DNA from: Lentisphaeria bacterium
GTDB lineage: Bacteria > Verrucomicrobiota > Lentisphaeria > Victivallales > UBA1829
Length of the DNA: 64,000 nt
Reading direction: 5' to 3'
NCBI GenBank assembly: GCA_017503375.1
Contig: JAFVTF010000034.1
Span: forward strand, 1-64,000
This document shows, one piece after another, positions 2,217-19,877 of this stretch. The position numbers and the translations under genes were made by a program. The notes under the pieces are model-generated. The model was given only the letters and a program-made list of their open reading frames with translations. It ran no database searches and was not told the DNA's origin. The stretch's first letter is position 1. Every line of letters starts with the position of its first letter.

Positions 2217-3680
2217 ATGAAAGAAACGATACTTCCTTTATGGAAAGATTCTGCTATAGAATCCAATTTGACGATATGTGCCCATCCTGAGAAAGATTCC
2301 CGCAGACCTGCGGTTCTTGTTGTTCCGGGCGGCGGCTACGGCGGAGTTTGCCGTTCAACAGAAGGCGATCCCATCGCAGAATGTTTTTCAAAACTCGGAT
2401 TCCGCACATTTATTCTGCATTACCGTGTCAGCCCTCATCGTTTTCCGGAGCCCCAGCAGGATATTTTGAGGGCAATCCGGCTGATCCGGTATCATGCAGA
2501 AGAGTGGAATGTTATTCCGGAACAGGTTGCAGTTTGCGGTTTTTCTGCCGGGGGGCATCTTTGTGCAAGTGCCGGGATCATTCCGGATGATGTTGAAGTT
2601 GTTCCGGAAGATGCTGCTGATGCAATGCCATCCCGTCCCGATGCCATGATCTTGTGTTATCCGGTGATCACTTCGGGAAAATATGCCCATTCCGGTTCAT
2701 TCAAAAATCTTCTGGGAAAAGAATATTCCAAACGGAAACGGGAGTTCTCTCTGGAAACCCGCGTAACAAAAGAGAGTGCGCCTGCGTTTATCTGGCATAC
2801 TGTCGAAGATCAGGCTGTTCCTGTTGAAAATTCACTTCTGCTTGCCGAAGCCATGAGGAAAAACGGCGTTGTTCATGAACTGCATATTTTCCCGCATGGT
2901 CCCCACGGAATGCAGTTGGGGTATGGCAGGGCAGATATTTCCCAATGGCCCGGACAGGCTGCGGCATTTCTTTATGGAACGCTCGGATTTCACCGTGCTG
3001 ACCCGCCGGAATATCGGAGAACTGTTGTTCTGACTTTCGATGATGCCTGTAAATCTCACTTGGAAACTGTTGCTCCGCTCCTGAAGAAATATGGTTTCAA
3101 TGCCACGTTTTTTGTTTGCCTTTTTACGGATGAGTGGCGGAAGAAAAATGAAAAATATCTTTTGAGCGGACCGGAACTGAAACAGCTTTCTGATATGGGA
3201 TTTGAAATTGGAAATCACACTTGGAATCATCCGGATTTGAAAAAACTTTCCGATGATGAAATTTCAAAAGAAATCGAATCCCTGAATGATTTTCTGAAAC
3301 AAAACGGAATTCCGGAACCTGTCAGTTTTGCCTATCCCGGCGGTCCCTACGCGGAAAATGCTGTGCCTGTTCTGAAAAAATATGGTTTGATCACAGCTCG
3401 TACAACGGAGAACGGTCCCTGGAATTTGAAAAAACAGGATCTCATGCGTGTTCCCTGTACACCGTTGCAGAAAGATAATAAACTTGCTTTTTATCATGCA
3501 GTTTCCTCCGGAAAAAAAGGGGAAGTTCCGGTGATCCTGTTTCACGGCGTTCCCGATATCGTTCATGATTGGGTGAATACTTCTCCGGAATGTTTTGCCG
3601 CATTTATGAAATATCTTTATGACAATGATTACCGTGTGATCTCCATGAAACAATATTTACAGGAAAATGGACTTTGCTGA
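2217..3680 (+). CDS. Fusion of alpha/beta-hydrolase esterase and CE4 polysaccharide deacetylase
   Basis: A 487-residue two-domain protein. Residues about 30-255 form an acetyl-xylan-esterase-like alpha/beta hydrolase: an oxyanion-loop PGGGYGG (37-43), nucleophile Ser110 in GFSAGG, Asp198 in EDQAVP and His230 in PHGPHG. Residues about 268-480 form a NodB-type CE4 deacetylase with TFDDA (Asp275/Asp276), metal ligands His334 and His338 in HTWNHP, and FAYPGG near 365. Both catalytic sets look intact. There is no signal peptide, so it is probably cytoplasmic and may remove O- and N-acetyl groups from imported oligosaccharides; the substrate is unknown. AAGGAG precedes the ATG. Confidence 0.85.
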   Translation: MKETILPLWKDSAIESNLTICAHPEKDSRRPAVLVVPGGGYGGVCRSTEGDPIAECFSKLGFRTFILHYRVSPHRFPEPQQDILRAIRLIRYHAEEWNVIPEQVAVCGFSAGGHLCASAGIIPDDVEVVPEDAADAMPSRPDAMILCYPVITSGKYAHSGSFKNLLGKEYSKRKREFSLETRVTKESAPAFIWHTVEDQAVPVENSLLLAEAMRKNGVVHELHIFPHGPHGMQLGYGRADISQWPGQAAAFLYGTLGFHRADPPEYRRTVVLTFDDACKSHLETVAPLLKKYGFNATFFVCLFTDEWRKKNEKYLLSGPELKQLSDMGFEIGNHTWNHPDLKKLSDDEISKEIESLNDFLKQNGIPEPVSFAYPGGPYAENAVPVLKKYGLITARTTENGPWNLKKQDLMRVPCTPLQKDNKLAFYHAVSSGKKGEVPVILFHGVPDIVHDWVNTSPECFAAFMKYLYDNDYRVISMKQYLQENGLC

Positions 3681-6150: not shown

Positions 6151-7860
6151 TCAGAACTTGAGAATTTCTCCCGGCTTGAGCGCACAGAGTTTTTTGCCTT
6201 TTCCGATATAAATTGTGGTCGCCGTCGGATTCCGGACAAAGGAGTTATCCGCACTCCATTCCAGAGCATTAACGGCTTTCAGATATTCACAGATTGCAAT
6301 ATTTGAGGCTTTCCATACCCGTTCATTCCGGAAAGCTGCACAGAAATTTTCCACAGCAGCCCAGTCGGATTCTTTCTTGAATTCCCAGGAATGTCCCCAG
6401 AGTGTACAAACTTTCAGTTCGCCGGAGTTCGGTTCTGCAAGGAATTTTTTCTGCCAATCCGGTAATTGTTCCGGAATACATTTTGCAGTCGGTTCCCAGC
6501 ACATGAAGTTTTTGGGGAGAGCAAAATTTCCCTGTTTTATTGTACCTCTGGCATAAGCGATTCCTGCTGTTTTCAGGATTTCCTGCGCTTGAGAAGTCGC
6601 TCCGAAGGTGGAACCGTTGGGCCATGCATGGCCTGTGACGATCCTGCCGGAGATTTCTTCCAGACCTTTTCTGTCGAGGACGATGTCATGCAGGATTTGC
6701 GGGGCAGGGGATAAAGATGCTGTTGTGTGCCGCAATCCGTGGGTTGCAATTTCATGTCCTTTGTACCATTCAACTTTTTTCGGATCATTTGCGAGAACAT
6801 GAGCACTCATATTGAAGGTCGCAGAGAATCCGTATTTACGGAACAGTTCAGCAAGCCGCTGATCCGGTGCGGAACCGTCATCAAAACTGAAAGACAGAGC
6901 TTTTCTGCTGCCATCGGGGAAGAAGATCATTTTATCTTCCGGAGCTGTGACCGGAACCGGAATCGCTTTTTCAGCCGGGCGCGCCGTGACCGTGATGTTT
7001 TTCTTTTTATCCGCCCGCATGACTTCTCCGGGAGCCAGTTTGACTTTTTTTCCGTTGACAGTCATGTAAAGCGTAACCGCACTTGTATTTTCCAGAACGG
7101 AGCAGTCAAGAGAAGTTTTCAGAGTTTTATATGCTTTGAAGTAACGGTAAATATCAATGTTTGCTGCATACCAGATATCCGGATGATTGCTGAGTTCTTT
7201 GCAGAAGTTTTCAATCACGTGCCAGTTTTTCTGATTATTGAATTCGTAACTGTGTCCCCAGATATAACAAAGACTGATCACGCCGCCCCAGGGATTATAG
7301 GTTTTGTATTTTTTTGCAAGAGCAGCGATGTTTGCGTTATGATGAGCCGTCGTATTCCAGCGCATGAAATCATCGGGCAGCTGGAATTTCTGGGTTGCGC
7401 CGACCGTTCTTGCGTAGACGATTTTATGTTTTTGGAGAATATTCACCACTTCCGGGGAATGAGCGCCGTATGGGTAAGCCAATCCGAGAACAGGATAGCC
7501 TGCAATTTTTTCCAAGCCGATGCGATCGTTTCTGATTTCTTTATCCAGAGCTTCCGGAGAAATCCTTGTAAAACACTTGTGATATTCTCCGTGACTTGCG
7601 ATTTCATGTCCGGCATAGAGTTTTGCCAATTCATTTTCCGGAAGAAAAGATTTGTATCCAAGCCGTTTGGAAGAGACATTGAATGTTGCTTTCATTCCGT
7701 ACTTATTGAAAATTTCCACCAGCTTTCTGTCATGGATTGTTGCATCATCGTAACTGAAAGTGAGGGCTTTATATTTCCATTCCGGATAAGTGAGTTTTAC
7801 TTCGGTGTGAAACATTCCGAAAAGCATCAGGAGTGATGCAGCGGCGCTTGCAAATTCCAT
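6151..7860 (-). CDS. Secreted protein with two tandem CE4 polysaccharide deacetylase domains
   Basis: A 569-residue protein with a short hydrophobic N-terminus (residues 3-18) consistent with export. Domain 1 (about 28-245) has TFSYDD (Asp38/Asp39) and HGEYH (His90/His94). Domain 2 (about 315-545) has SFSFDDG (Asp327/Asp328) and HGLRH (His374/His378). Each is followed by a small conserved segment with a Y-M/I-x-x-x-G-K-K pattern and LxPGE, so the whole unit was duplicated. Both metal-binding triads look intact, and both domains contain a WGHSxEF motif. AGAGGA precedes the ATG. It lies 14 bp after the gene at 7875-8306 and is probably co-transcribed with it. Confidence 0.85.
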   Translation of the reverse strand: MEFASAAASLLMLFGMFHTEVKLTYPEWKYKALTFSYDDATIHDRKLVEIFNKYGMKATFNVSSKRLGYKSFLPENELAKLYAGHEIASHGEYHKCFTRISPEALDKEIRNDRIGLEKIAGYPVLGLAYPYGAHSPEVVNILQKHKIVYARTVGATQKFQLPDDFMRWNTTAHHNANIAALAKKYKTYNPWGGVISLCYIWGHSYEFNNQKNWHVIENFCKELSNHPDIWYAANIDIYRYFKAYKTLKTSLDCSVLENTSAVTLYMTVNGKKVKLAPGEVMRADKKKNITVTARPAEKAIPVPVTAPEDKMIFFPDGSRKALSFSFDDGSAPDQRLAELFRKYGFSATFNMSAHVLANDPKKVEWYKGHEIATHGLRHTTASLSPAPQILHDIVLDRKGLEEISGRIVTGHAWPNGSTFGATSQAQEILKTAGIAYARGTIKQGNFALPKNFMCWEPTAKCIPEQLPDWQKKFLAEPNSGELKVCTLWGHSWEFKKESDWAAVENFCAAFRNERVWKASNIAICEYLKAVNALEWSADNSFVRNPTATTIYIGKGKKLCALKPGEILKF

Positions 7861-8473: not shown

Positions 8474-9229
8474 ATGAAAATCAGTGTAGTTGGAAAAAAA
8501 TGTCCTCAGCTGAAAGAGCTGCTGCGGAATGCAAATATCTGTTTATATCAGCCGGAAGAGGCTGATTTGATTATTGTATACGGTGGAGATGGTTCTCTGC
8601 TCGGAGCTGAACGGATGTATCCGGGAATCCCGAAATATCCGATCCGGGATTCAGAGACGGCTCCATTGTGTCCGCTTCATTCCCTGGAACAGCAGTTTCC
8701 GGTTTTTCTGGCAGGAAAACTGGAAAGAACTTCTTTGCCGAAGCTGATGGCAACAGTGGATGGTTCCGAAAAGATGTATGCAATCAATGATATCTTTGTT
8801 CATAATAAGATCCGGACGAGTGCATTGCGTTACAAAGTCTGGATTGACGGAGTGCTTTATGCCCGTGAAATTGTGGGCGATGGCTTGGGTGTTGCGACTG
8901 TACATGGTGCGACTGCTTATTACCGGAGTATAACCCGCAGTGTATTCCGCGTTGGAATCGGTCTTGCATTCAGCAACAGTACAGAACTGGTAAACCATCT
9001 TGTTCTGCCGGACGATTCTGTGATCAATATCAAAATTATCCGGGGACCGGGTGAACTGACAGCAGATAATGCACCGGAAATGCCTTTGGTCAAGGATGGT
9101 TCCGAATGTGAGATCCGCATGTCTGATATGAAAGCAGAGATGCTTGGCCTTGATTTCTTCATGTGTCCGGAATGCCGCAGACTGCGCCATCAGATGCGGC
9201 GGGAATTTACAGCAAAGGATCGTCATTGA
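8474..9229 (+). CDS. nadK: NAD kinase
   Basis: A 251-residue member of the NAD kinase/diacylglycerol kinase fold family, which phosphorylates NAD to NADP. The active-site YGGDGSLL motif is at residues 35-42, preceded by a shortened N-terminal region. Later come NDIFVHNK and GDGLGVATVHGATAYYRS, the counterpart of the usual DGxxVSTPTGSTAY segment but with 'THGA' replacing 'TPTGS'; this is a divergent member. The protein is somewhat short for bacterial NadK (usually 270-300). coaB follows after one base, so cofactor genes are paired. AAGGA lies 12 bases before the ATG. Confidence 0.75.
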   Translation: MKISVVGKKCPQLKELLRNANICLYQPEEADLIIVYGGDGSLLGAERMYPGIPKYPIRDSETAPLCPLHSLEQQFPVFLAGKLERTSLPKLMATVDGSEKMYAINDIFVHNKIRTSALRYKVWIDGVLYAREIVGDGLGVATVHGATAYYRSITRSVFRVGIGLAFSNSTELVNHLVLPDDSVINIKIIRGPGELTADNAPEMPLVKDGSECEIRMSDMKAEMLGLDFFMCPECRRLRHQMRREFTAKDRH

Positions 9230-9230
9230 A

Positions 9231-9866
9231 ATGAAAATATTGATTACAGCGGGCCCCACCAGAGAGGCATTGGACCCCATGCGTTTTATCTCCAACCGTT
9301 CCTCCGGGAAAATGGGTTATGCCCTGGCGGAGGCTGCTGTCGCTGCCGGACATGAAACAGTTCTGGTTTCCGGTCCCTGTTCCCTGACTCCGCCGGAAGG
9401 TTTGGCAAAGGTGGTTCAAGTGATTTCCGCCGCTGATATGGCTGAAGCTGTCAAAGCAGAATTCCCTTCCTGTGATGCCGCTGTTATGTGCGCAGCAGTT
9501 GCAGATTACCGTCCAAAAAATTATTCCTCATCGAAGATCAAGAAAAATGATGGAGAAATGGTGATAGAATTGGAGCGGACGGAAGATATTCTGGCTTCCC
9601 TGGGAAGTATGAAAAAGCCCGGACAGCTGTTGATCGGTTTTGCCGCTGAAACCGATGATATGGAAGAAAATGCTTTAGGAAAACTGCAGCGGAAAAATCT
9701 TGATTGGATTGCTGCAAACCGCCTGGATCTTCCGGGACAGGGAGCTGAAAGCAATACGAATACAGTTGTTCTTTATTCTGTTAACGGGGATAGAATTGTG
9801 ATTCCGTTAGCCTCAAAAAAACAGGTGGCGGAAGCTATTTTGAAAAATACAGGGGTGAATAAATGA
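9231..9866 (+). CDS. coaB: Phosphopantothenate-cysteine ligase (CoaB domain only)
   Basis: A 211-residue protein starting MKILITAGPTREALDPMRF, the standard start of the CoaB half of Dfp. It has SNRSSGKMG (nucleotide binding), AAVADYRP near residue 85, KIKK, and the C-terminal GFAAETD and NxxxVL elements. CoaB joins cysteine to 4'-phosphopantothenate in coenzyme A synthesis. Most bacteria fuse it to CoaC decarboxylase; here there is no CoaC domain, and none is encoded elsewhere in the window. The start is fixed by GenPept-like homology and the one-base gap after nadK; the stop overlaps the next start (ATGA). Confidence 0.9.
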   Translation: MKILITAGPTREALDPMRFISNRSSGKMGYALAEAAVAAGHETVLVSGPCSLTPPEGLAKVVQVISAADMAEAVKAEFPSCDAAVMCAAVADYRPKNYSSSKIKKNDGEMVIELERTEDILASLGSMKKPGQLLIGFAAETDDMEENALGKLQRKNLDWIAANRLDLPGQGAESNTNTVVLYSVNGDRIVIPLASKKQVAEAILKNTGVNK

Positions 9867-11899
9867 AAAATGTTCTGAAATGTTTGATTTTATCGTTGTT
9901 TGTTCTGATTCTCACAGGTTGTGCCACCAGACCTGATTTTTCAGATAACAGCAGCGGTGTGAAATGGAGCATTTCTGCAACAGAAGAAGCTCTTGCCGGA
10001 GATGATCCGATTGAACCTTTCAACCGTTCCATGTTTGCTGTGAATCATTTCTGTATGCGCTGGCTTGTCCGGCCTGTCAGCTGGGTATACTGTTCCATCC
10101 TACCGAAAGAGGTGATTGTCAGAATTGATAATATTTCGGATAATCTGGCGTTTCCCGGTCGGATGGTCAGCTGTCTGTGTCAGGCAAAATGGAAGGGGGC
10201 TGGAATTTCCTTTTCCCGTTTTCTGATCAATACAACTGTCGGGATTGCAGGGATTTTTGACCCGGCGGATCATTTTCTGGGATTGAAGCGGCGTCATGAA
10301 AATATGGGCCATGCCTTTGCCACATGGGGAATCGGTCCCGGAGCTGTACTTGTTCTGCCGTTTTCGACAGCAACCAATATCCGCGATCAAATCGGGTGGG
10401 CGTTTGATTCTGCGTTGGACTTGAAAGTTGTGATTCCTTATGCCGGTTCCATTTCCGGTGTGAATAAGGCGATGAATTCTTACGATTCCTTTGATTCTCT
10501 TGTAGAAGCTGCAGCGGACCCGTATGAACAGTTCAAACTTGCGTTGTCAATCATGCGTTATCCTCAGCTGAATGATTATATTTTCCCGGCAATGGAATCT
10601 GATCCGGCATTTGAAAATACTGTTTTCAAACCGGGAAAGAATGCAGAAGTATTCCGGACAGCTCATTATTTCAAACCGGTCAATCCTCTGGTGGATACTT
10701 TGCGTGTTAATATATTTTCCATGCAGCGGACCAACTCCAGATGGTGGACAAATACCTCTCTCTGGAACCGTGATTTTCAGAATCTCGGTTCCATCCGTTC
10801 CATCAGAGACCCGAAAGAACCGGAAGATGCGGAACCGCGTTATTATCAGTTCTGGAACGAGCCGCAGAAAGAAGGCGGGGTGAAACAGAAAAACGAACTG
10901 GTAATCATCATTCCGGGTGTCGGAACTCATTACACTGGAAAAATGCTCCGGGCTTTGGCGGAAGTTTATTCCGATGCCGGTTATGCTGTTGTTGCAACCA
11001 CTAACACAATGAACTGGTCTTTTGCAACGACAAAAGAAACCGCATTCCCCGGCTATATTCCGGAAGATGTCAAACATGTCCGCCGTCATTTGAAACTGAT
11101 TCTGGAAGATCTTGCAAAGAATAAAAACTTCAAGCCTTCCCGGATTGTGATTGCCGGATATTCTCTCGGGGCAATGCAAACGCTTCATCTTGCTTCATTG
11201 GAGAGCCGGAAAAATATTCTGGGTGCATCCCGTTATGTGGCGATCAATCCGCCCGTTGACCTGCTCTATGCAATGGATCGTTTTGAGAATCTGGGAAATA
11301 TTACCCAAAAGTGGACAAAGAAAGAATATTTTCAGAATCTCGGCAATGCCATTGTGAATTATCTTCCTGTGGCGATGAATAAACATCCGCATCAGAAATC
11401 TGACGGTAAAACAGATACGGAAAATCCGTCTGATTATCTTTACGGAGCCAATATCAAGCCGGAGCAGGCTGCCGGATTGATTTCCATTGCATTCCGGATG
11501 CTTCTCCGGGAGTTGATGCTTTCCAATGCCAGAAACGGATTTCTGCCGAAGGAATATGAATACAAATGGGGCAGGCGGACAGAACTTTATAAAAAGATTG
11601 ATTCCCTTTCCGGCAGGGATTATGTCCGGCTTTTTGTGAAAAGCCGTTATCCGGAACTGTCTATGGAGCAGCTCGGATTCAACAGCAGTTTGCGGTGCCT
11701 GGAAAAATTCCTGAAAGAGAGTCCGGATATCAGAGTCATTCATAATCTGGATGACCCTCTGCTGTCTCAGAAAGATGCAGATTTCCTCAGTGAAACGCTC
11801 GGTAAAAAGTTACTCTGGTTTGATCATGGAGCTCATCTTGGCAATCTTTATTTGAGGGATTATCAGAAAGAACTTCTCAAAGCATCTGCCGTAAAATAG
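9863..11899 (+). CDS. MlaA (VacJ) lipoprotein fused to an alpha/beta hydrolase
   Basis: A 678-residue lipoprotein with signal peptide and lipobox LTGC (Cys20). Residues about 45-245 are MlaA: DPIEPFNRSMFAVN, FLINTTVGIAGIFDPA and GPGAVLVLPF are family hallmarks. After a linker, residues about 343-675 form an alpha/beta hydrolase: IIPGVGTHYTG, nucleophile Ser434 in AGYSLGA, and a C-terminal LDDPL Asp and DHGAHLG His that complete the triad. MlaA removes mislocalised phospholipid from the outer-membrane outer leaflet, so an attached hydrolase could be a lipase or acyltransferase (inference). Normal MlaA proteins are about 250 residues. It overlaps coaB by four bases. Confidence 0.85.
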   Translation: MKNVLKCLILSLFVLILTGCATRPDFSDNSSGVKWSISATEEALAGDDPIEPFNRSMFAVNHFCMRWLVRPVSWVYCSILPKEVIVRIDNISDNLAFPGRMVSCLCQAKWKGAGISFSRFLINTTVGIAGIFDPADHFLGLKRRHENMGHAFATWGIGPGAVLVLPFSTATNIRDQIGWAFDSALDLKVVIPYAGSISGVNKAMNSYDSFDSLVEAAADPYEQFKLALSIMRYPQLNDYIFPAMESDPAFENTVFKPGKNAEVFRTAHYFKPVNPLVDTLRVNIFSMQRTNSRWWTNTSLWNRDFQNLGSIRSIRDPKEPEDAEPRYYQFWNEPQKEGGVKQKNELVIIIPGVGTHYTGKMLRALAEVYSDAGYAVVATTNTMNWSFATTKETAFPGYIPEDVKHVRRHLKLILEDLAKNKNFKPSRIVIAGYSLGAMQTLHLASLESRKNILGASRYVAINPPVDLLYAMDRFENLGNITQKWTKKEYFQNLGNAIVNYLPVAMNKHPHQKSDGKTDTENPSDYLYGANIKPEQAAGLISIAFRMLLRELMLSNARNGFLPKEYEYKWGRRTELYKKIDSLSGRDYVRLFVKSRYPELSMEQLGFNSSLRCLEKFLKESPDIRVIHNLDDPLLSQKDADFLSETLGKKLLWFDHGAHLGNLYLRDYQKELLKASAVK

Positions 11900-13724: not shown

Positions 13725-15317
13725 ATGGCTTTAGCAACAACAATTTTAAAAGCGATCTTCGGCAGCAAGGCGGAACGCGATGTGAAAAAAGTCCGTCCCT
13801 ATGTCAAAAAGATCAATGATTTGGAAGTTCAGTATCAGTCTTTGACAGAAGAACAGCTGAAAGCAAAGACCGATGAGTTCAAGGCACGTCTGCAGAACGG
13901 CGAAACCACCGATGATATCATGTGCGAGGCGTTCGCTGTTGTGAAAAATGCGTGCCGCCGTCTTTGCGGAACAACCGTGAATGTGTGCGGACATGAACTG
14001 ACATGGAATATGATTCCTTTTGATGTGCAGATCATCGGAGGAATTGCGCTTCATCAGGGAAAAATCGCGGAAATGGCAACCGGGGAAGGTAAAACTCTTG
14101 TTGCAACCATGCCGCTGTATCTGAATGCTCTTACCGGAAAAAACTGTCAGCTCGTTACCGTGAATGATTATCTGGCACGCCGTGACTCCGAATGGATGGG
14201 AACAGTGTTCCGTTATCTCGGATTGACTGTTGGCTGTATTCAGAACCAGATGTATTCCGAAGAACGCCGTCAGCAGTATAATTGCGATATTACCTATGGT
14301 ACAAACAGTGAATTCGGGTTTGACTATCTGCGTGATATGGGAATGGCATCCTGCAAAGAAGAACTGGTTCAGAGAAATCATTTCTTTGCAATTATTGACG
14401 AAGTCGACTCCATTCTGATTGACGAAGCAAGAACCCCGCTGATCATTTCCGGCCCTGTTGCTGTTTCCACTCATCAGTTCGATGAATTGAAACCGGCGAT
14501 CGCTGATCTTTTCAACAAACAGAATCTTCTCTGTTCCCGCCTGGTCAGCGAAGCAAGTGCTGTCTTTTCCAAAGAAAATCCCTCTGATGATGAGTTGGAA
14601 GATGCAACAATCAAGCTCGTTCAGGTGAAAATGGGTATGCCCAACCACCGTCAGCTGATGCACCTGCTGGAAGATGTCGAAATCATGAAACGCGTGGAAA
14701 AAATGGATATGTATGTCCGCAGCGACAACAACCGCGGTATGCTTCAGGAAGTGGAAAGTGCTCTGTACTTCTCCATGAGCGAAAAGCAGCATGAAGCAGA
14801 CTTGACGGAAAAAGGCAGAAATGCTGTTTCCGGCGACAAGAATGCGTTCGTCCTTCCCGACCTTCTGGAATCCATTCATGCGATCGACACAGACAAAACT
14901 CTGGATGAGAAAGAAAAGATCGAAAAGAAGAAAGCGTTCCAGGAAGAGTTTGCTCTCAAGAGTGAACGCCTTCATGACATTTCCCAGCTTCTCCGCGCAT
15001 ACTGTCTCTTTGAAAAGGATGTACATTATGTCGTGCAGGAAGGCAAGGTAATGATCGTTGATGAACATACCGGACGAATCCTGCCGGGCCGCCGTTTCAG
15101 TGAAGGGCTTCATCAGGCTCTGGAAGCAAAGGAAGGCGTGACCATCGAACGGGAAACTCAGACGTTTGCAACAATTACCATTCAGAACTATTTCCGTATG
15201 TATGAAAAGCTTGCCGGTATGACCGGTACCGCTGAAACGGAAGCAAGCGAATTCCACCAGATCTATAAACTGGATGTGATGGTCATTTCCCACCAACCGT
15301 CCCTGCAAACGTGTTGA
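13725..15317 (+). CDS. secA: SecA preprotein translocase ATPase, N-terminal part (frameshifted)
   Basis: This is the first 520 or so residues of SecA, the ATPase that drives Sec-dependent export. Visible are MATGEGKT (Walker A, about 117-124), the [19 protein letters not shown] Walker B block, and the [13 protein letters not shown] and [18 protein letters not shown] segments. The frame is genuine up to YKLDVMVI. One extra T in the run at 15286-15288 then throws it off, producing a false tail and a stop at 15317. Removing that T restores [11 protein letters not shown] and joins the two parts into a 993-residue protein. AAAGGA precedes the ATG. The error could be from sequencing or assembly; an essential gene is unlikely to be dead. 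Confidence 0.85.
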
Positions 15318-16707
15318 CTTCAATGACTGCGTTTACAAGACAAAGAAAGAAAAGTTCAAAGCGATTCTGGATGATGTGGAAGAACATTACAAAACCGGAC
15401 AGCCTGTTCTGCTCGGAACGATTTCTGTGGAAGATTCCGAAATCCTGAGCCGTATGCTCAAGCTCCGGAAAATTCCGCACAATGTGCTGAACGCGAAGAA
15501 TCACGCAATGGAATCTGAAATCGTTGCCCGTGCCGGAGAAAAATTCTCTGTGACCGTTGCCACCAACATGGCAGGACGCGGAACAGATATTAAACTCGGT
15601 GATGGTGTGGCAGAACTGGGCGGTCTTTATGTGATCGGCAGCAGCCGTCACGATTCCCGCCGTATCGACCGTCAGCTCCGTGGACGTTCCGCACGTCAGG
15701 GCGACCCCGGTGCATCCCGCTTCTATGTCTCTCTGGAAGACAACCTGATGCGTTTGTTCGGTTCCGACAGAATTGTCGGCATTATGGAACGTTTCGGAAT
15801 GGAAGAAGGGGAAGAACTTCAGCATCCCTGGCTGAACAAATCCATTGAAACCGCACAGCGCCGTGTGGAACAGCATTACTTCTCCATCCGTAAACGGACT
15901 CTGGAATACGATGATGTCATGAACAAACAGCGTGAAATCGTTTACGGTATCCGCAAAAATGTTCTGTTTGATGAAAGCTCAAAAGGATTTATTCTTGATA
16001 CAGTGGCAGATCGGGTGGATGGAAAGATTCAGGAAGCTCTGGCTGTCGTTGATAAAGATTCCAAGGATAAAATCAATAAAGATGTGCTTTTGACCTGGCT
16101 GAATCAGACATTCCCCATCGGTTTCGATGAATCTGTGATCGTTTATAAAACAGATTCTACCGTGGATGAAGAAGCAACTGCAAAGACGATTTGCGACAAA
16201 ATCGTCAATATGTATGAGATCAAATCCTCCTATGAAGAACCGGAAGCCATTGCCTGGCTGGAACGCCGGATCATTCTGGAAGCGATCGACCGCTTGTGGC
16301 AGCAGCATTTGAACGCTATGGATCAGCTGCGCGCCAGTATCGGATTGCGTGCTTATGCTCAGAAAGATCCTCTTGTGGAATACAAGCAGGAAGCATACCG
16401 CATGTTCGATGAGCTTATGATGGCGATTGATCAGGAGATCATGACAAATATGTTCCGTTCAGCGACAAGTGTCGAGGCGTTTGAAAACATGTTTGCTCAT
16501 CTTCCCCAGCAGATGATTGCAATGGATGACCCCATGGATGCAATGCCGGTGGATGAAAACGGTATGCCGATTTCTGAAGATGCAGAAATGCAGGATGCTC
16601 ACCCCGAAATTCAGATCACGTTCAAGCGCGATCATGAAAAGATCGGCAGAAATGATCCCTGTCCTTGCGGTTCCGGTAAGAAATTCAAAAAGTGCTGCGG
16701 TAAGTAA
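15289..16707 (+). CDS. secA: SecA preprotein translocase ATPase, C-terminal part (frameshifted)
   Basis: The reading frame resumes at 15289 with [22 protein letters not shown]. It contains nucleotide-binding domain 2 ([31 protein letters not shown] with the arginine-finger region), the scaffold and wing domains, and the C-terminal SEC-C zinc motif [13 protein letters not shown] just before the stop. No start codon with a ribosome site lies near the junction (the first ATG, 15376, has none). This is the other half of a single gene rather than a separate protein. Domain content and order are otherwise complete. Confidence 0.85.
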
Positions 16708-17457: not shown

Positions 17458-18162
17458 ATGAAGTACGATATCAAGACATTTGATCCGGGAAAAATTCTCG
17501 TTTCCCCCTCTCTGCTGGCTGCAGATTTTTCGCGGCTCGGAGAACAGGTCGCAGAAGCTGAAAGTGCCGGATGTGAACTGCTGCACCTGGATATTATGGA
17601 TGGTCATTTTGTTCCGAACCTGACATTCGGTCCTGCTTTGATCAAGGCTCTCCGGAAAGATTCCGGTATGTTGTTCGATGTACATTTCATGCTGACAGAT
17701 CCAATCAAATATGTAAAGCCCTTTGCAGAAGCCGGTGCGGATTTGATCACATTCCACATTGAAGCCAATGGAAATCCGGCAGATACCATCGCAGAAATCC
17801 GTAAACATGATTGCCGCGTTGGTTTGACTCTGAAACCCGGAACCCCTGCAGAAGCCGTGTTCCCCTGGCTGGATCAGGTGGATATGATTCTTGTTATGAC
17901 AGTTGAACCCGGATTCGGCGGTCAGTCTTTCATGGAAGATCAGATTCCCAAAGTCGCGGCAATCTTTGCTGAAATTAAAAAACGCAATCTTCCTGTATTT
18001 ATCGAAGTTGACGGCGGAATTGATGCCAAAACAGCTCCCGGAATTGTCAAGGCCGGTGCTGATGTTCTGGTCGCCGGAACAGGTGTGTTCCGCGCTCCTG
18101 CCGGAATGAAAGCCGCTGCCGGACAGCTCCTCAGCCTTTCTGAGCTTCTCCCCGCACGATGA
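17458..18162 (+). CDS. rpe: Ribulose-phosphate 3-epimerase
   Basis: A 234-residue TIM-barrel enzyme that interconverts ribulose 5-phosphate and xylulose 5-phosphate in the pentose phosphate pathway. Family signatures are clear: SPSLLAADFSRL at the start, LHLDIMDGHFVPNLTFGP (catalytic Asp and metal His), HFMLTDP, FHIEA, MTVEPGFGGQSF, and EVDGGID with the second catalytic Asp near 185. The length is normal apart from about eight extra N-terminal residues. Its stop overlaps the next gene by four bases (ATGA). Confidence 0.97.
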   Translation: MKYDIKTFDPGKILVSPSLLAADFSRLGEQVAEAESAGCELLHLDIMDGHFVPNLTFGPALIKALRKDSGMLFDVHFMLTDPIKYVKPFAEAGADLITFHIEANGNPADTIAEIRKHDCRVGLTLKPGTPAEAVFPWLDQVDMILVMTVEPGFGGQSFMEDQIPKVAAIFAEIKKRNLPVFIEVDGGIDAKTAPGIVKAGADVLVAGTGVFRAPAGMKAAAGQLLSLSELLPAR

Positions 18163-19877
18163 AACAGATCGTTACCCTGAAATCTTATTTTCAGCGGAAA
18201 TATGGTGCCCCGCTTCAACGGATCCCGCTGGACCCCGGTTTCCCTTGTCCGAACCGGAATCCGGATGGTTCAGGCGGGTGTGCCTTCTGTCCGGGTGATG
18301 GTTCCCGGGCACAGCATTTGAAACCCGGAATGTCTCTTGCAGAACAGGTGCGTTCCGGGATTGCTTTTGCACAGTCCCGTTACGGGGCAAAACCTCCTTA
18401 TGCCGCATATTTTCAGGCATATACCACAACAAACGGGCCGTTGGAGCAGCTCCGGAAAATGTATCAGGATGTTCTGACCATGGCAGACTTTCCCTGTGTG
18501 ATCGTGGCAACCCGTCCGGATTGTCTGCCTCCGCAAGTGATTGATTTACTGGCTGAATTGGCTGTTGATCATGAAGTCTGGGTTGAGCTGGGTGTGCAGA
18601 CCGCCAATGATAAGACATTGCAATTGATCAATCGCGGTCATGATTTTTCTGCGGTGGAACGTGTCGTTCCCCTGCTTGCTGAACGCGGAATCAAAGTTGC
18701 AGCTCATGTTATCCTCGGTCTTCCCGGTGAAACGGCGGAAGATTACCGCTGTACAGCTGAGAAACTGGCAAAACTTCCTTTATCCGGAATCAAGACTCAT
18801 AATTTGCTGATTTACCGGAATACCCCCATGGAAAAACTTTTCAAAGCAGGAAAATTGAAGCCGCTGAATGAGTATGAATACGCAGAAGCTCTGGCAGAAT
18901 TTTTGCGGATACTGCCGGATGATCTTGTTGTCATGCGGTTGTGTGCGGATGCCCCCGATGATGGTTTGGCGATTCGCAACTGGTGGATGGAAAAAGGGGC
19001 ATTTACTGACATGTTCCTGAAGATGTATGAATCCGGGGATACCTCTCCGGATTGCATGAAAGCAGTCCGTACCGCTGATGGTTCGTATACCTTTTATCAT
19101 CCGAAATACCGTCAGCATTTCCACAGTGTCGCCGGAGCCAGAGAGGAGTCCGTAAAAAAATATCTGGAACCTTGCCGGATCAGAGAAAAGCTGATGTCCG
19201 GAGAAAACGTTCAGATATTGGACGTCGGTTTCGGAATGGGGTGGAATGTTCATGCCGCTGCGGAACTGGCAGAGTCGGTCCGGGGGGGAAAACTTCATAT
19301 TATCAGCATGGAATTTGACCGGACAGCCATAGATAATGCGCTGCGTTTGCCGGGCAGAGAAGGGGATGTCCTGATTCACTGTTTGGCGGAACAGGGCGTT
19401 TATGAATCTGATTATGTCAAGGCGGAAATCCTTTTCGGAGATGCGCGGCAGACGGTTCAAACGCTGGACCTTTGTTTTGATGCTGTTTTTCTGGATGCAT
19501 TTACTCCGGATACCAATCCGGAATTATGGACCTCTGAATTTATTGCCCAGCTGAAAAATCATCTGAAAGGATCCGGCAGGATTGCCACTTACTGTTCAGC
19601 TTATCCTGTTCGCGGAGCTTTGATCGAAAACGGTTTTTCCGTGTTGGAATCGGAGGCTTTCGGACGGAAACGCGGCGGAACGGTTGCAACACTTGTCCCT
19701 GCTGATGATTTGACTCCTTTGCCGGAAAAAGAATTTATGATTACCACCCGTTCCACAGCAGGAACGCCTTACCGTGATGTCTCTTTGAGATCTTCACGGG
19801 AAGAAATTCTTCAGCTTCACGCGGATGAGATCAAAGCCCGTCGTGCCGCCGGAATTCCAAAGTGGTATCGTCCGTGA
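18159..19877 (+). CDS. Fusion of YhcC/YtqA-type radical SAM protein and MnmD-type tRNA methyltransferase
   Basis: 572 residues in two complete domains. Residues 1-300 match the TIGR01212 radical-SAM family: a C-x10-C-x2-C cluster motif at Cys30/41/44, FQAYTTTNGPLEQLR, and WVELGVQTANDKTLQLINRGH. Residues about 305-570 match the MnmC methyltransferase half (MnmD): TADGSYTFYHPKYRQHFHS entry motif, SAM-binding ILDVGFGMGWN (353-363), and DAFTPDTNPELWT (446-458). In B. subtilis the radical-SAM relative YtqA is reported to act beside a methyltransferase in making mnm5 wobble uridine. The fusion probably does both final steps, cmnm5 to nm5 to mnm5 (inference). It is convergent with hrpB. Confidence 0.85.
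   Translation: MKQIVTLKSYFQRKYGAPLQRIPLDPGFPCPNRNPDGSGGCAFCPGDGSRAQHLKPGMSLAEQVRSGIAFAQSRYGAKPPYAAYFQAYTTTNGPLEQLRKMYQDVLTMADFPCVIVATRPDCLPPQVIDLLAELAVDHEVWVELGVQTANDKTLQLINRGHDFSAVERVVPLLAERGIKVAAHVILGLPGETAEDYRCTAEKLAKLPLSGIKTHNLLIYRNTPMEKLFKAGKLKPLNEYEYAEALAEFLRILPDDLVVMRLCADAPDDGLAIRNWWMEKGAFTDMFLKMYESGDTSPDCMKAVRTADGSYTFYHPKYRQHFHSVAGAREESVKKYLEPCRIREKLMSGENVQILDVGFGMGWNVHAAAELAESVRGGKLHIISMEFDRTAIDNALRLPGREGDVLIHCLAEQGVYESDYVKAEILFGDARQTVQTLDLCFDAVFLDAFTPDTNPELWTSEFIAQLKNHLKGSGRIATYCSAYPVRGALIENGFSVLESEAFGRKRGGTVATLVPADDLTPLPEKEFMITTRSTAGTPYRDVSLRSSREEILQLHADEIKARRAAGIPKWYRP

Follow-up and report, generated by a model that had tools for sequence, protein, structure and literature searches.

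The locus considered here raises the question of what becomes of a phospholipid taken up by an MlaA-type lipoprotein whose polypeptide chain continues into a hydrolase. It lies in the window, the whole 64,000-nucleotide stretch of contig JAFVTF010000034.1 (assembly GCA_017503375.1) from a Lentisphaeria bacterium. A preliminary description had proposed a single lipoprotein with a full MlaA region and a hydrolase, and this was borne out at exactly its coordinates by matches to Pfam family PF04333 in the first half (E = 5.1e-45) and to MlaY of Pseudomonas aeruginosa in the second (2e-29). The frame opens with an ATG at 9863, closes with the stop codon at 11897–11899 and has no internal stops. The features to which we refer are as follows.

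9231–9866, forward strand: coaB-like gene upstream (Pfam DFP, 7.4e-70), sharing an ATGA overlap with the fusion gene
9863–11899, forward strand: fused MlaA (MlaZ-like)–MlaY-like lipoprotein, 678 amino acids plus stop
9863–9922, forward strand: predicted lipoprotein signal peptide with lipobox LTGC, from reading of the sequence
10001–10543, forward strand: MlaA domain, residues 47–227, from Pfam PF04333 and a fold match
10544–10654, forward strand: low-confidence linker, residues 228–264, with pLDDT below 50 at residues 240–249
10655–10762, forward strand: P..DTLR...F segment, residues 265–300, equivalent to the mature N-terminus of the separate MlaY of related genomes
10760–11887, forward strand: MlaY-like alpha/beta-hydrolase domain, residues 300–675, from homology and predicted fold
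11162–11164, forward strand: Ser434, predicted nucleophile in GYSLGA, between strand 427–433 and helix 435–449, aligning with MlaY Ser187
11261–11728, forward strand: mostly helical cap, residues 467–622 (about 155), between strands 455–461 and 623–628
11753–11755, forward strand: Asp631, after strand 623–628, aligning with MlaY Asp388
11834–11836, forward strand: His658, after strand 650–653, aligning with MlaY His415

The lipobox cysteine, Cys20 (codon 9920–9922), is kept in 90% or more of the 21 fused relatives compared, and in the fusion protein the residue that follows it is alanine. In the sorting of lipoproteins, alanine after the lipobox cysteine is the outer-membrane type of signal, and from its LTGC-A signal the protein is predicted to be a lipoprotein of this type. 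The MlaA domain scores 154 bits against PF04333, for which the curated cut-off is 25, and comparison of the window protein with the MlaA chains in the PDB by sequence gives a best value of 1.8e-14. The fold agrees: in Foldseek, the MlaA half resembles the MlaA crystal structures 5nuo, 5nup, 5nuq and 5nur with TM scores of 0.74–0.80 normalised by target. The fused copy is the only MlaA in the window's genome.

None of the Pfam alpha/beta-hydrolase families matches the C-terminal half above its cut-off (best 9e-4), so that ordinary annotation would name the first half alone; the Pfam PLA1 family (PF02253) likewise has no match in the fusion protein. What makes the identity of this half clear is its homology to P. 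aeruginosa MlaY, together with the predicted fold and the conserved triad. A tblastn search of plasmid records with the C-terminal domain returned matches that adjoin genes for a 'VacJ family lipoprotein' in P. aeruginosa (4e-23) and Skermanella, the matching genes themselves being annotated 'alpha/beta fold hydrolase', and a pair of hydrolase and MlaA-type genes in a Fusobacterium plasmid record, where it is unannotated. The Pseudomonas locus encodes an acetate symporter, a DUF485 protein, a betaine-binding protein, a DUF2061 protein, the hydrolase, the VacJ protein, a pirin, a patatin and a lauroyl acyltransferase. We take this neighbourhood to be that of PA3235–PA3242, and the hydrolase/VacJ pair to be PA3238/PA3239, that is, MlaY/MlaZ. 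The blastp alignment of the window protein with MlaY (PA3238) covers 333 amino acids at 25% identity, and that with MlaZ (PA3239; 9e-25) covers 151 at 35%.

The active site of MlaY consists of Ser187, His415 and Asp388 (PMC11977310). Following pairwise alignment, S187, D388 and H415 fall exactly opposite S434, D631 and H658 of the window protein. These are the serine in GYSLGA, the aspartate in LDDPL and the histidine that had been put forward as a triad from inspection of the sequence, the aspartate in question being the second of the two in LDDPL. The three positions are nearly invariant across 107 relatives, with Ser434 present in all of them, Asp631 in 106 and His658 in 106; the sole missing histidine is from a truncated sequence, and the sole change of Asp631 to glutamate is found in Fusobacterium, with another aspartate beside it. 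By homology, the hydrolase half belongs to the MlaY family, and the window protein appears to be a natural single-chain MlaZ–MlaY.

An AlphaFold2 model of the full-length protein, built on the 21 fused relatives, has a pLDDT of 80.3 and a pTM of 0.83, and going by the pTM alone, some confidence can be placed in the predicted arrangement of the two domains relative to each other. The proposed triad stood up to structure prediction, in which Ser434, Asp631 and His658 occupy the canonical places of the fold, and the point at which the cap is inserted in the model resembles that of many lipases. Among the alpha/beta hydrolases that Foldseek matches to the second half are lipases, esterases and an acetyltransferase. 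Since the closest solved folds are those of general hydrolases and an acetyltransferase, the substrate is not fixed by the fold. Comparison of the sequences places the probable fusion junction just before the P..DTLR...F segment, at about residue 240–265 of the window protein.

To follow the distribution of the fusion, 289 genomes were drawn from the phylum; 114 of them contain MlaA. Reading of the loci revealed the MlaA–MlaY fusion in 75 of the 289, and in another eight, MlaA and MlaY as separate genes of one strand, with MlaA first and the two either overlapping or no more than 29 bases apart; this is the phylogenetic spread that the preliminary description had named as a check. In the split loci (L052–L059), which are from related families, the domains and their order are those of the fusion but the chains are two, and the separate MlaY has a signal peptide of its own. 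A profile of the MlaY domain matches in 83 of the 289 genomes, exactly the 75 fused and the eight adjacent cases, and in none of the 289 did it find an MlaY domain away from MlaA. Separate halves without any link in relatives had been named as an outcome that would speak against a functional fusion, and the reverse was found, the split genes being adjacent, and often overlapping, in eight of eight. Chance neighbourhood of the halves in these genomes was ruled out on the same count.

MlaC is present in 31 genomes of the draw, and in 30 of these it stands directly beside a stand-alone MlaA. Sorted by partner, the 114 genomes with MlaA comprise 82 with MlaY only, 29 with MlaC only, one with both and two with neither, and in one of these last two the MlaA locus is interrupted by a contig end. 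The only genome with both partners, G173, has a separate MlaA for each. Any one MlaA is thus linked to MlaY (83 genomes) or to MlaC (30), never to both, and MlaC was not found in 82 of the 83 MlaY genomes. The Fisher value for this exclusivity, 1e-23, ignores relatedness and is descriptive only.

Closer to the window, MlaC was not found in the window's own genome (G000, 93.6% complete) and is present in one of the 41 genomes of the order. That genome (G291, locus L079) has a stand-alone MlaA adjoining MlaC, and its assembly has a contamination of 6%. The statement in the preliminary description that no other Mla genes are nearby proved correct: the mlaE-F-D operon lies on another contig, without mlaC, and MlaA is single. 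In that operon, the MlaD-type protein encoded next to mlaE and mlaF (L165, 6464–7438 of contig 28) matches PqiB (2e-18) better than MlaD (6e-9). MlaE is present in 39 of the 41 genomes of the order, so that some intermembrane transport remains, perhaps via an unrecognised carrier. It was not detected in two fusion genomes, G014 (97% complete) and G031 (95%), and their retention of the fusion suggests that the fusion is independent of the MlaE transporter. LpxC was found in all 15 genomes of the window's family; lipid A, a precondition of asymmetry, is therefore made. LptD gave no match in the window's genome, but the model used finds it in just two of 14 control genomes, so this negative carries no information. 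A wider scan of contigs, which called for alignment over the full length of the fusion, used two MlaA peptide patterns only and samples the spread outside the phylum poorly, yielded 20 fusion loci with identity up to 81%, the named ones all from Lentisphaeria. Many of the named fusion relatives come from animal-gut metagenomes, and judged by them the host is an uncultured, Victivallales-type member of the Lentisphaeria.

In a tree of MlaA, where the branches of E. coli and of a few others are long, a supported branch (100/90) separates all of the MlaY-linked MlaA of the phylum from the MlaC-linked MlaA and from the MlaZ of Proteobacteria and Fusobacteria. The tree of the MlaY domain repeats this branching, with a short-linker fused group, a split group and a long-linker fused group, and from the agreement of the two trees, the MlaA and MlaY domains have travelled together. 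Short linkers are of 26–41 residues and long ones of 59 or more; the long form carries, within its linker, the P..DTLR...F segment with which the mature separate MlaY begins. The history could have been one fusion followed by one fission, or two fusions, and the two types of linker lead us to favour the latter. Gene order is opposite to that of the phylum in Pseudomonas, Skermanella and Fusobacterium, where mlaY precedes mlaZ, so the linkage either outlived a change of order or arose more than once. The position of P. aeruginosa MlaZ outside the fused clade in the MlaA tree similarly allows that the partnership arose twice.

In P. aeruginosa, MlaZ takes mislocalised phospholipid from the outer leaflet and passes it to MlaY for destruction (PMC11131202, PMC12569750), and the coupling of extraction to hydrolysis is described in PMC11131202, PMC12569750 and PMC11977310 as what this two-gene system is proposed to do. 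The coupling of an MlaA channel to a phospholipase is therefore already known for two genes. The MlaZ–MlaY (PA3239–PA3238) pathway of P. aeruginosa, destroying mislocalised phospholipids, is reportedly the subject of Guest et al. 2023 (PNAS 120:e2302546120). In that system as in the window, a protein of the MlaA family is coupled genetically to a hydrolase of the MlaY type, with the same triad. P. aeruginosa, however, has two genes with mlaY upstream, whereas the window has one chain with MlaA first; a canonical MlaA pathway exists in P. aeruginosa as well, whereas the window's genome has its sole MlaA in the fusion and no MlaC that we could find; and the MlaZ sequence has no clear lipobox, whereas that of the window protein is LTGC. 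We regard the window protein as a variant of the MlaYZ system, which keeps the genetic coupling but not the division into two proteins. With the canonical MlaA–MlaC–MlaFEDB system of E. coli, the window shares the MlaA domain and its fold, as well as mlaE-F-D genes elsewhere in the genome, but no MlaC was found, and the C-terminus of MlaA runs into the hydrolase. The preliminary description had looked to E. coli PldA (OMPLA) as the analogue, and in this it was wrong. Although PldA removes surface phospholipid, the role proposed for the fusion, it is a beta-barrel enzyme with a fold unrelated to that of the fusion's MlaY-family hydrolase, and a search with Pfam PLA1 found it in none of the 41 genomes of the order, the window's genome included.

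Overall, we think it likely that the protein is a single-chain MlaZ–MlaY that extracts and hydrolyses strayed phospholipid, MlaY having replaced MlaC as the partner of MlaA in this clade. The MlaA domain, lipid-anchored in the inner leaflet of the outer membrane, would take up phospholipids that have strayed to the outer leaflet. These would pass to the tethered hydrolase at the periplasmic side, not to MlaC for transport back to the inner membrane, and Ser434, Asp631 and His658 would cleave their acyl chains, so that asymmetry would be kept by destruction on the spot instead of by retrograde transport. Lipid uptake and phospholipase activity are ascribed to the fusion on the model of P. aeruginosa, and we infer that the hand-over between the domains is direct, within the one chain. 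Nearly all of the bacteria with the fusion are without the MlaC carrier, so destruction of the lipid probably takes place at the site of its extraction. The coupling of extraction to hydrolysis that the preliminary description had suggested is thus supported, as a predicted function, by the homology of the two halves to MlaZ and MlaY and by the shared triad.

The main uncertainty of the predicted enzyme lies in its chemistry, hydrolysis or acyl transfer, and the identity to MlaY of just 25% counts against a reading as extraction and hydrolysis. An acyltransferase or lipid-remodelling enzyme, moving an acyl chain from the extracted phospholipid to a different acceptor as PagP does, could be built on the same triad, which serine hydrolases and acyltransferases have in common, and deacetylcephalosporin C acetyltransferase (2vat, 2vav), itself of the alpha/beta-hydrolase fold, is among the best Foldseek matches. 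The TM scores to this enzyme are low, however (0.39–0.44 by query), and the homology in sequence is to MlaY, a protein that PMC12569750 and PMC11131202 describe as a phospholipase. Acyl transfer is unlikely.

It is also unlikely that MlaA feeds an undetected periplasmic carrier and MlaFED while the hydrolase, tethered for the sake of location alone, acts on something else, such as other esters or dietary or cell-wall substrates. Such an arrangement would suit the persistence of the MlaE, MlaF and MlaD genes in the window's genome and a hydrolase that scores under all Pfam cut-offs, but it sits badly with an MlaY domain found solely with MlaA in 83 of 83 genomes, with a linkage that stays while gene order varies between phyla, with the two fusion genomes without detectable MlaE and with the failure to find MlaC in 82 of 83. 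As for the fusion being an artefact of assembly or frame, the assembly is in 128 contigs and secA in the window has an apparent frameshift; nevertheless, the fusion recurs in independently assembled genomes, in 75 of the draw and in 20 independently named records, and an artefact is ruled out for practical purposes. On a broader view of extraction and hydrolysis by a single chain, the MlaA channel would, across most of a class, have left lipid transport to form with MlaY a self-contained disposal system that replaces both MlaC and PldA; MlaA would be of two kinds according to partner, MlaC for return or MlaY for destruction, and the fused form would fix the geometry of the hand-over. We put the chances for and against this generalisation about level.

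The single-chain form of MlaA and hydrolase, its spread in Lentisphaeria and some neighbours and the rule of MlaY or MlaC were not found in the literature searched, outside which Guest et al. 2023 lies. As far as checked, what is new is the fused form and the fact that it takes the place of MlaC throughout a clade. The chain has neither a separate partner nor a known carrier, and so provides a natural case in which to ask whether channels of the MlaA family can deliver lipid directly to an enzyme. Structural studies of the hand-over, until now proposed for a pair of P. aeruginosa proteins, could be made here on a single one. The suggested rule that MlaA pairs with MlaC or MlaY could predict whether stray surface phospholipid is recycled or destroyed.

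Upstream of the fusion, the order of NadK-like gene, coaB and fusion is kept in nine loci including the window, all in close relatives, and therefore says little on function. The first of these genes (8474–9229, forward strand) encodes an NAD-kinase-like protein with a GGDG motif, no Pfam match and weak NCBIfam matches (best 5e-11), and its product is predicted to be a divergent NAD kinase. Polysaccharide deacetylase domains are encoded by two genes further upstream: in a protein of 487 amino acids (2217–3680, forward strand) one such domain is fused to an esterase of the BD-FAE type, and a protein of 569 (6151–7860, reverse strand) has two in tandem. Downstream, secA (13725–16707, forward strand) is present as two pieces of 530 and 443 amino acids in different frames, with the apparent frameshift near 15290–15320, which is probably an assembly error in the window's genome. 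A protein of 572 amino acids (18159–19877, forward strand) joins a radical SAM protein, MnmL/YtqA (TIGR01212, 4e-78), to an MnmC2-type tRNA wobble-uridine methyltransferase, for which the matches are NF033855 at 1.6e-34 (below cut-off) and Pfam Methyltransf_30 at 1e-29; from these matches, we take it to unite two enzymes that act in the same tRNA modification.
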